From the NCBI RefSeq assembly GCF_025685395.1, contig NZ_JAGSYA010000004.1:62001-126000 (forward strand): DNA of 64,000 nt. Direction: 5' to 3'. The notes beneath the pieces were generated by a model. It made no database searches. It was given only the letters and a program-made list of their open reading frames with translations, and was not told where the DNA came from. A program made the position numbers and the translations under genes. The stretch comes from Terriglobus tenax (lineage in GTDB: Bacteria > Acidobacteriota > Terriglobia > Terriglobales > Acidobacteriaceae). Shown here one piece after another: positions 33,197 to 34,880 of the stretch; position 1 is the stretch's first letter; each line of letters starts with the position of its first letter.

Positions 33197-33475
33197 ATGT
33201 CGACCTCAGAACGGGAAAAAATCAAGTTGTTGAACCGTGTCCGCCGACTGCGCGGCCAACTCGACGCCGTCGAGCGGTCTCTCACGAGTGCCGACGACTG
33301 TGCCGACCTGCTGATGCTGCTTGCTGCCGTCCGCGGCGGTGTGAACGGCCTGATGGGAGAGGTGATGGAAGATCACATCCGCCACCACCTGGCCGCTGGC
33401 GAGCAAAAGGAAAGGCCGATCTCCCCGGAGCTTGCCGAGGACCTGATCGACCTTGTCCGTGCTTATTTGAAATAA
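33197..33475 (+). CDS. CsoR/FrmR/RcnR-family metal- or formaldehyde-sensing repressor
   Basis: A 92-residue all-helical DNA-binding repressor of the DUF156 family, acting as a tetramer. The opening LLNRVRRLRGQLDAVERSL and AAVRGGVNGLMGEVMEDHIRHHL and the end LVRAYLK follow E. coli FrmR closely. Sensor positions read C35, H60 and H64. C35 and H60 are shared by FrmR and RcnR; H64 is an RcnR (Ni/Co) ligand, while the RcnR His3 is a Thr here. The effector may therefore be a metal or formaldehyde. It faces the 76-residue and porin genes across the operator at 33159-33182, and its stop codon abuts that of the convergent gene at 33476. Confidence 0.88.
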   Translation: MSTSEREKIKLLNRVRRLRGQLDAVERSLTSADDCADLLMLLAAVRGGVNGLMGEVMEDHIRHHLAAGEQKERPISPELAEDLIDLVRAYLK

Positions 33476-33700
33476 CTAGGCCTTGCTCTTTGCGCCGACG
33501 ACCACCAGGGCAATGCCTCCTACCAGCGCAATACCACTCAGCACCGGCGGAATAGGGACACTTTTCTTTTCCTCGTGGCCAATTTGAACTGGCCCCAGGT
33601 CCACATCTTTTTCGTGTTTTGTAAAGCTGAAACCGCCCATGGCAAAACCGACAATTCCAAGCAGAATCAACAAAATACCGACCATCGTAGATACTTTCAT
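33476..33700 (-). CDS. Small two-helix membrane protein (possibly DUF3185-type)
   Basis: A 74-residue protein with hydrophobic helices at each end (VGILLILLGIVGFAMGGFSF and PVLSGIALVGGIALVVVGA) joined by a charged loop containing VDLGPVQIGHEEKKSVP. This resembles the small bacterial membrane proteins with an LGP/PIPP linker that are annotated as DUF3185 or conserved hypothetical; function unknown. The ATG at 33698-33700 has GGGAGAG upstream; another ATG lies five codons earlier. Its stop directly touches that of the FrmR-like gene, with no bases between. Confidence 0.7.
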   Translation of the reverse strand: MKVSTMVGILLILLGIVGFAMGGFSFTKHEKDVDLGPVQIGHEEKKSVPIPPVLSGIALVGGIALVVVGAKSKA

Positions 33701-33764: not shown

Positions 33765-33793
33765 TTGACTCTTTGCGGAGGTGGCGTTACGTT
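33765..33793 (+). promoter_or_regulatory. Candidate sigma-70-type promoter for the thiG leader
   Basis: TTGACT at 33765-33770 is five of six to the -35 consensus and is followed, after 17 bases, by TACGTT, a weak -10. A transcript starting near 33800 would begin just ahead of the AAGGAGG at 33808 and run through the small ORF and hairpins into thiG. The weak -10 keeps confidence low. Confidence 0.35.
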
Positions 33794-33826
33794 ATCCGTA
33801 CAAGGGAAAGGAGGATGATCCAGCCT

Positions 33827-33883
33827 ATGAAATGTGACTCAAACAGTTGCATCAACACAGTACTTGAGGTGACTGAGGCTTAA
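33827..33883 (+). CDS. Candidate 18-codon leader peptide or microprotein ahead of thiG
   Basis: An ORF of 18 codons (MKCDSNSCINTVLEVTEA) preceded by a full-strength AAGGAGG 12 bases upstream; an in-frame ATG at 33815 would lengthen it by four codons but abuts the ribosome binding site. It has a Cys-x4-Cys pair and no membrane character. Its TAA stop is the first base of the hairpin at 33881-33897, an arrangement common in leader-peptide control. Short ORFs occur by chance, so the evidence is the ribosome binding site and placement. Confidence 0.4.
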   Translation: MKCDSNSCINTVLEVTEA

Positions 33884-34109
33884 GGCGGCCCGCCTTAGAC
33901 CTGGCAAGACGCTCTACTCCTGCCGAGGCACTCAATCTGAGCGATTGGATCGCTCAGATTTATGTGGGTCCGCCTCAGGTCAATCTCAACAGCTCACCGC
34001 CACATGGCCTGCCTAGCGCAGGCCATGTGCATTTAACCCCGTGATTCGGGGTGCGAAACGGTGTCCGAAACGCACTTTAAGGGCATAAAGAGGGTCTAAA
34101 ATAGCCCTC
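33881..34109 (+). ncRNA. Highly structured untranslated region upstream of thiG (candidate leader or small RNA)
   Basis: No gene fits in these bases, but hairpins fill them: 33881-33897 (TAAGGC/GCCTTA), 33934-33960 (perfect 12 bp, TGG loop), 34001-34029 (perfect 12 bp, CTAGC loop), 34036-34052 (6 bp), 34051-34075 (GTGCG-AAA-CGG stems with matching AAA internal loop) and 34090-34109 (GAGGGT with GCCCTC), the last ending at the thiG ATG and covering a purine-rich GAGGG. AGGCGG/CCGCCT (33883 and 33971) and GACCTG/CAGGTC (33898 and 33977) could also pair, as a pseudoknot. The TPP (THI-box) signature, including GAACCTGA, was not found. It could be an unnamed leader, a small RNA or stacked terminators. 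Confidence 0.55.
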
Positions 34110-34880
34110 ATGGAACCCCTCGTAATCGCCGGAAAAGCCTTTCAGTCGCGTCTTATTGTTGGAACCGGGAAGTACAAGGACGGCCCCGAGACCCAGCGCG
34201 CCATTGAAGCCTCCGGCGCCGAGATGGTCACCGTGGCCGTTCGTCGTGTGAATCTGGATCGCTCCAAGGAGTCGCTGCTCGACTACATCGACCCTCAGCG
34301 CTACTTCCTGCTGCCTAACACTGCTGGCTGTTACACCGGGGAAGAGGCCATCCGCGCCGCCCGTCTGGGCCGCGAAGTGGGCCTGTCGGACTGGGTCAAG
34401 ATCGAGGTTATCGGCGACCAGCGCACCCTCTATCCCGACGTTGCAGGAACGCTATTGGCGACCGAGGTTCTGGTAAAGGAAGGGTTTACGGTTCTTCCGT
34501 ATACCACTGATGATATTGTGTTTGCAAAAAGGCTTATCGATGCAGGTGCGGCTGCGGTGATGCCGCTCGCGGCTCCCATCGGCTCCGGTCTGGGTATTGC
34601 GAACACCTATAACCTGCGGATGCTGCGGGAGTTGATTACGGAGGTTCCTCTGATTGTCGACGCCGGTCTGGGCACGGCTTCCGACGCTGCCCTCGCCATG
34701 GAGATGGGTTTTGATGCCGTCCTTCTGAACACCGCCATTGCCGGCGCCACGGATCCCATCCTGATGGCCGAGGCCATGCAGCACGGTGTTCTGGCCGGGC
34801 GTCAGGCGTATCTGGCCGGCCGCATGCCACGCAAGCTCTATGCCACCGCCAGCTCCCCGCTGGAAGGGATCTCGAAGTAA
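34110..34880 (+). CDS. thiG: Thiazole synthase ThiG
   Basis: ThiG joins deoxyxylulose phosphate, a glycine- or tyrosine-derived imine and the ThiS thiocarboxylate to make the thiazole ring of thiamine. The 256-residue TIM barrel shows [10 protein letters not shown] at the start, [17 protein letters not shown], the Schiff-base lysine K97 in [23 protein letters not shown] and [19 protein letters not shown]. Length is standard. It stands alone: no thiS, thiF, thiO/H or thiC is in the window. The structured region upstream may set its expression. A 34-codon ORF overlaps its stop by one base. Confidence 0.96.

Follow-up and report, generated by a model that had tools for sequence, protein, structure and literature searches.

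The DNA ahead of thiG in Terriglobus tenax almost certainly holds a free-standing, mostly single-copy small RNA gene, which represents the acidobacterial branch of an RNA family that spans several phyla and whose actinobacterial branch is known as Ms_IGR-5. We examined it as part of a 64,000-nucleotide stretch of the genome (the window) and compared it with copies from other genomes; at the level of sequence, this comparison shows an open frame within the RNA, its helices, promoter boxes, terminator stem and copy number, and its homology across phyla. The best overall reading of the RNA, and one that we regard as more likely than not, is a regulatory RNA gated by its own translation.

The RNA gene ahead of thiG

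Every element that the original prediction had described between 33765 and 34109 was present on re-reading, but they divide between two transcription units. The hairpin at the stop codon of a short ORF (33881-33887 with 33891-33897) and two perfect 12-bp hairpins (33934-33960 and 34001-34029) lie within the RNA gene; a stem with an AAA/AAA internal loop (34051-34075) and a hairpin that sets GAGGG (34090-34094) opposite CCCTC (34105-34109) fall outside it. Most likely, the stretch ahead of thiG is a separate small RNA gene and not a thiG switch, which was the second of the two options originally offered and is favored by its own promoter boxes, its terminator stem and the inconstancy of thiG as a neighbor. 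The predicted transcript of about 235 nt (33800-34034, forward strand) was delimited by covariance model (CM) matches, nucleotide search and folding, in which this segment scored better than 200 of 200 dinucleotide shuffles (z -4.5). Within the family, conservation begins at about 33799 and ends with the terminator. When 150 family genomes were searched at the nucleotide level, it resolved into two blocks, 33799-33905 and approximately 33971-33999, and the alignment indicated that the region between the blocks is variable, as is everything past about 34034, including the AAA/AAA stem and the last hairpin.

The putative promoter (33765-33793, forward strand) consists of TTGACT (33765-33770), a 17-nt spacer and TACGTT (33788-33793), suggesting that transcription starts near 33800. 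A TANNNT box occurred at the same distance in 173 of 192 distinct copies, compared to 13.7 in shuffled sequences, and TTG near -35 in 182 of 192, compared to 25.9. At the other end, a terminator-type hairpin with a short T tract (34001-34034, stem 34001-34029, forward strand) was identified by family alignment and copy comparison. In 21 family rows, 97.9% of the cells of this stem were paired and five of its nine pairs had changed on both sides; across copies, a stem of at least 8 stood directly 3' of the long-range helix P1 (see below) in 148 of 153 cases, compared to 39 in shuffles. The T tract itself is weak, with a T-rich tail in only 43 of 153 copies, and a scan of the window with strict consensus rules found no promoter and no terminator.

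The thiG gene (34110-34880, forward strand; Pfam PF05690, E 1.7e-109) appears to form a transcription unit of its own. Of 47 distinct thiG upstream regions, the window's included, 46 contain a TANNNT box, represented here by TAAAAT at 34097-34102 on the forward strand, outside the RNA. Given that this box sits at -12/-13 from the ATG in 44 of the 47 regions, thiG mRNA most likely starts at the ATG itself (34110) and is leaderless across the family. Shine-Dalgarno-like 4-mers were found in 12 of the 47 regions; in 11 the 4-mer is AGGA and forms part of a TAGGAT box, and the twelfth is the GAGG of the window. The GAGGG/CCCTC hairpin, originally taken to mask the thiG ribosome-binding site, spans the -10 box; if the mRNA is leaderless, the hairpin is promoter DNA and would thus be absent from the message. 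A transcription start downstream of 34080, which had been named as grounds for abandoning the leader idea, is likewise suggested by the TANNNT box.

The idea of a leader RNA controlling thiamine synthesis lost ground on this -10 box and on the neighborhood of the RNA. Among 30 family loci, only 19 have thiG downstream on the same strand, 14 of them at 236-386 nt from the AAGGAGG and five at 979-1384 nt, and the remaining 11 have no thiG in the flank examined, although the RNA is present in 72 of 79 sampled genera. TPP riboswitches often precede thiamine genes. The TPP riboswitch model RF00059 gave 0 matches in the window and 0 in the whole genome, although thiG is present there, bearing out the earlier failure to find the conserved TPP core; the control search was positive in 10 of 14 genomes. 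On the other side of the RNA, 33197-33475 (forward strand) encodes a metal-sensing repressor (PF02583) and 33476-33700 (reverse strand) a small protein of 74 aa that matched nothing in Pfam; by eye, similar small proteins seem to precede the RNA in loci L002, L004, L011 and L018.

Distribution and relationship to Ms_IGR-5

By plain nucleotide search, 52 of the 150 family genomes, a set that includes the window genome, contained the stretch. We then used a CM, R1, built from 21 of the 30 family loci with the window copy among them. R1 matched 332 of 398 family genomes and the 72 of 79 genera noted above, with two copies in three rows and one in all others; the window genome, itself an R1 row, matched at E 3.8e-51. 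R1 also picked up remote copies outside the family, in three further families of the same phylum, for a total of 57 of 396 genomes, and a DNA pattern drawn from the shared core found at least 120 loci. Among the 80 titled matches listed, most were from Streptomyces, Mycobacterium, Nocardioides and other Actinomycetota, and the matches listed also included Acidobacteria, a Zixibacteria metagenome-assembled genome (MAG), a Spirochaetia MAG and others.

A cross-phylum CM, R2, was built from 32 chosen copies, again including the window (E 1.3e-24 for this row), and applied at a threshold of E<=1e-4 to phylum draws that include genomes whose copies had gone into the model. In Acidobacteriota, 82 of 392 genomes matched (62 with E no higher than 1.4e-10 and 20 weak, with E above 1e-7). 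The phylum to which a Streptomyces belongs gave 87 of 198 (75 with E no higher than 6e-8 and 12 weak, by the same limit), that of the Zixibacteria MAG 42 of 118 (E never above 2e-14) and that of the Spirochaetia MAG seven of 149 (E never above 3e-10). With 111 of its 198 genomes unmatched by R2, the phylum of the Streptomyces does not carry the RNA universally. Second-best R2 matches, followed in six genomes with no strict limit, had E values of 0.001 or worse, and a scan of viral contigs gave four matches, none with the required ORF spacing. Actinobacterial copies (loci L108, L110 and L128) recur beside genes for a THAP4-like heme-binding protein, a class IV aminotransferase and a GCV_T-domain protein. 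Among the 45 largest neighbor clusters (seven or more loci), all of them actinobacterial, no neighbor gene was shared outside Actinomycetota; in this analysis, loci beyond the 80 titled were treated as actinobacterial, except for a few with acidobacterial-type ORFs.

In the window, no Rfam model scored at or above its cut-off. For Ms_IGR-5 (RF02471, cut-off 45 bits), the window copy gave no match and its genome none at E<=10, and an Rfam scan of six relatives produced a weak colinear match (16.8 bits, E 4.3). All 10 actinobacterial loci tested exceeded the cut-off. Of nine further loci, taken from outside Actinomycetota, only two did so: L131 of the Zixibacteria group with 55.9 bits, and L084, which comes from a different family within the window's phylum, with 47.3 bits. 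Four others fell at 26-29 bits and three had no match; an actinobacterial control, Corynebacterium glutamicum, gave no RF02471 match either. In the 32-copy R2 alignment, the conserved parts follow the same order as in RF02471: a 5' ACA., the Shine-Dalgarno sequence, the GAGGTG core, the CAG.CACC block and the terminator. We conclude, on sequence grounds, that the window RNA is a homolog of Ms_IGR-5 by way of intermediates and not a member of RF02471 as now defined, and the range of the RNA exceeds Actinobacteria, the range given in Rfam's description of that family.

The likeness to Ms_IGR-5 lies in the order of parts, with an ACAC 5' end, AAGGAGGTGGTCC, GTGAGGTGGCTG, AAT.CC..CAG.CACC and a terminator. 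In contrast, the window copy has an extra A in the Shine-Dalgarno sequence, a longer ORF that contains Cys and other inner hairpins, and it carries CTGAGGC/GCCTCAG where actinobacterial Ms_IGR-5 folds pair the stop region. The Rfam consensus structure of Ms_IGR-5 is without the helices P0 and P1 described below. The Caulobacter sRNA CC2171 (RF01867) shares GAAAGGAGGUGAUCCAG, the complement of the 16S tail, near its 5' end, but its model, whose cut-off is 75 bits, gave 12.9 (E 4.6) and aligned no GAGGTG/CACC core, and locus L087 scored 21.8 bits, also under the cut-off. CC2171 may use a similar trick at most, a resemblance that falls short of homology.

In earlier reports, the Ms_IGR-5 transcript was detected in Streptomyces (PMC8079986, PMC8780764), IGR-5 was mapped to ncMSMEG15794c (PMC10454040), and Ribo-seq of M. 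abscessus and M. smegmatis showed ribosome footprints on the RNA (PMC4974804); the parts available of PMC4109619, PMC3828370 and PMC4046766 hold nothing on it. A function or a wider spread of Ms_IGR-5 was not found in searches of the open-licence PubMed Central literature. The actinobacterial RNA is thus already on record, and its cross-phylum spread, its conserved frame, P0 and P1 did not turn up in those searches.

The mini-ORF and its Shine-Dalgarno sequence

The RNA would double as a tiny mRNA, with a Shine-Dalgarno sequence that matches the whole 16S tail followed by a frame of 11-22 codons. In the window, a segment complementary to the 16S 3' tail apart from one extra A (33807-33821, forward strand) was recognized from the 16S end of the source genome (...GGCTGGATCACCTCCTTTCT) and from comparison of copies; it contains AAGGAGG at 33808-33814, and AAAGGAGGNTGATCC has a single exact match within the window. 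The predicted mini-ORF (33827-33883, forward strand) comprises 18 codons encoding MKCDSNSCINTVLEVTEA followed by TAA, and ends in L-E-V-T-E-A-stop. The original prediction had given 18-22 codons behind a perfect AAGGAGG. Both the ORF and the AAGGAGG stood, and the longer version from ATG 33815 is indeed open; however, we take 33827 as the start because six of 30 loci lack an in-frame ATG at the 33815 position.

The suspicion that this is a real coding frame was borne out by comparison, as an in-frame start and an open frame were present in 167 of 167 scanned copies, compared to one and nine in the other two frames. In all 167, the start codon lies 7-15 nt past AAGGAGG, the stop follows two codons after GAG GTG NNN, and the frame ends in E-V-x-x-x-stop; the residue that follows E-V is usually A (114 copies) or T (48), with five exceptions. 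These counts are not selection-free, given that the scan demanded AAGGAGG, RTC (or TGGA) and GAGGTG with a stop; a pattern demanding no stop still placed it exactly two codons after GAG GTG NCT in 119 of the 120 matches listed. The scan missed L030, L082, L100-L103 and L220. The counts for frame, P0, P1, fold and 16S pairing exclude loci L031 and L032-L079, which are largely repeats; L164, with too little upstream sequence, was dropped from all of these but the frame count, leaving 166 rows. Frame length, 11-22 codons across copies, ran from 16 to 20 in the first 30 loci and varied by whole codons. We infer that the frame is translated in Acidobacteriota, and the comparison suggests that the RNA is not non-coding. 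The footprints on mycobacterial Ms_IGR-5 (PMC4974804) fit translation, but they do not prove it because the authors of that study note that classical non-coding RNAs also yield footprints. An ordinary base-pairing regulatory RNA with an incidental frame would agree with the typing of Ms_IGR-5 as an sRNA by Rfam, yet it is scarcely credible in the face of a frame kept in every scanned copy, a start at a narrow distance from the Shine-Dalgarno sequence and a stop at a fixed codon.

Pairing to the 16S tail was nearly complete: all 14 tail bases were paired in 152 of 166 copies, with G-U pairs and one bulge allowed and the copies partly selected for AAGGAGG and RTC. Such pairing, along with promoter boxes at a fixed distance, is what would be expected of a decoy or reservoir for 30S subunits, in which the Shine-Dalgarno sequence captures 16S tails and lowers initiation elsewhere while the ORF and the fold set the holding time. 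We consider this quite unlikely, as it leaves unexplained the constant E-V-x-x-x-stop spacing and the compensating pairs of P0 and P1.

If instead a conserved micropeptide were the product, the structure would merely tune its translation or stability. The conserved frame speaks for this, as do a pN/pS of 0.47 in the variable part (98 non-independent pairs), which points to mild constraint at the protein level, and the prominence of Cys: across 56 distinct family ORFs it makes up 69 of the 574 variable residues, and 52 of the ORFs contain it. However, outside the last residues both length and sequence differ between groups, base changes are spread almost evenly over codon positions (128/136/163), and 92 of the 167 copies have no Cys. 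The GAG GTG codons showed no synonymous change in the scanned copies, a weak sign of constraint on the RNA given that the scan pattern itself required them. On balance, we regard the micropeptide as unlikely to be what the gene is kept for.

The Cys codons also bear on cis attenuation of a downstream gene, here thiG, through a Cys-rich leader peptide. ThiG chemistry draws on sulfur that originates from cysteine, and Cys-responsive leader-peptide attenuators place the end of a short ORF containing Cys codons within alternative helices. The window RNA shares this arrangement, and thiG follows in the 19 loci described above. Unlike in such attenuators, no constant downstream gene was seen, given the 11 family loci without thiG and the lack of a shared neighbor in other groups among the 45 largest clusters; moreover, the terminator stem is clear of the alternative helices, having no overlap with P1, the separate -10 box of thiG is positioned for a leaderless start, and Cys is conserved in the family yet not outside it. 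Cis attenuation is accordingly very improbable, and we return to gating by translation as the preferred reading.

Long-range helices and the proposed gating

The last five or six codons of the frame (NGTG-A-GGTGRCTG..stop) would form the strand that joins the RNA together, through P0 to its own 5' end and through P1 to the 3' block by the terminator. P0 pairs the first RNA bases (CACN) with NGTG in the frame. In the window, it joins CAAG (33801-33804) to CTTG (33863-33866, inside the ORF), both on the forward strand; this is a compensated form, as most relatives have CACG/CGTG. P0 was paired in 109 of 128 distinct copies, compared to 55.3+-4.3 in shuffles and a maximum of 70 among 2000 of them. 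An extension of P0 to the 5-mer NNGTG was rejected (15 of 132, where shuffles reach 18). A further candidate helix, P0b, of GGTCC with GGAC, was also set aside, although it was paired in 88 of 127 copies compared to 59.1, above all 1000 shuffles with their maximum of 74.

P1 pairs GGTGRCTG in the frame with CAG.YCACC before the terminator, represented in the window by GGTGACTG at 33868-33875 (inside the ORF, forward strand) with 33990-33998. Its partners were GGTGACTG/CAGTCACC in 15 copies, GGTGGCTG/CAGCCACC in 25, GGTGCCTG/CAGGCCACC in two and GGTGTCTG/CAGACTACC in one, so that whether the variable base is A, G, C or T, the commonest partners remain pairable with G-U included. Mismatches do exist, such as GGTGGCTG/CAGACACC in six copies, and the variable pair was unpaired in seven of 32 cross-phylum rows. 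Across those 32 rows, P0 and the outer part of P1 had 94.8% of cells paired and 19 cells with a double change, compared to 2.3 in shuffles and at most seven when the strands were slid; a single P0 pair accounts for ten of the 19 and a single P1 pair for seven. Sequence comparison thus indicates that P0 and P1 covary across phyla. The support for P1 comes from other phyla because P1 hardly varies within the family.

The family helices of the first alignment had 93.2% of cells paired, and all lie on the forward strand. CTGAGGC (33873-33879) with 33972-33978 is nearly invariant, with 98.6% of cells paired in 21 family rows, and competes with P1 for CTG. The P2 hairpin that starts at the stop codon (33881-33897) had two of six pairs changed on both sides and 86.5% of cells paired, and the hairpin CCTGGCA / TGCCGAGG (33900-33928) had four of eight and 85.1%. 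The 12-bp hairpin at 33934-33960, in the variable region, is lineage-specific and missing from the close relatives L002 and L003. The 3' block GCCTCAGGTCAATCTCAACAGCTCACC (33972-33998), which includes the 3' strand of P1, was conserved both in the nucleotide search and in the cross-phylum alignment. The minimum-energy fold of the window copy contained neither P0 nor P1 as drawn, and in it the CTGAGGC helix extends into GTCAATCTCAA; when nine copies were folded, P1 was read in four (L116, L118, L131 and L145) and P0 in two (L118 and L080). Copies of the Zixibacteria group (L131, L137 and L243-L262) are compact and have a possible pseudoknot, GTTGGG/CCCAAC. As a general feature, this pseudoknot was rejected, being confined to that group (18 rows, 7.2 compared to 4.8 shuffled) and at background in five others.

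P0 and P1 draw on a coding strand that lies no more than about one ribosome length from the stop codon, so the global fold and translation should be mutually exclusive, a proposal that rests on the geometry of the sequence. A translating ribosome would have to melt the fold, and an RNA free of ribosomes could adopt it. The RNA would thereby read out whether ribosomes initiate and finish on the mini-ORF, and the folded, ribosome-free form may act on a partner through the conserved AAUCCCAACAG-like element. That this competition is the function of the RNA, i.e., gating, strikes us as an even call, and its regulatory output is presumed. We hypothesize, more tentatively, that the RNA is an ancient single-copy translation sensor common to several phyla, whose ribosome-free fold signals through the AAUCCCAACAG-like element.

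Few RNAs are known to be kept mostly once per genome across phyla. This one has so far been filed as an actinobacterial sRNA, and the comparison suggests that it is neither confined to Actinobacteria nor non-coding. The comparison also yields pairs (P0 and P1) and a frame that can be tested. If gating is true, the RNA would represent a widespread means for cells to read their translation state directly through RNA.
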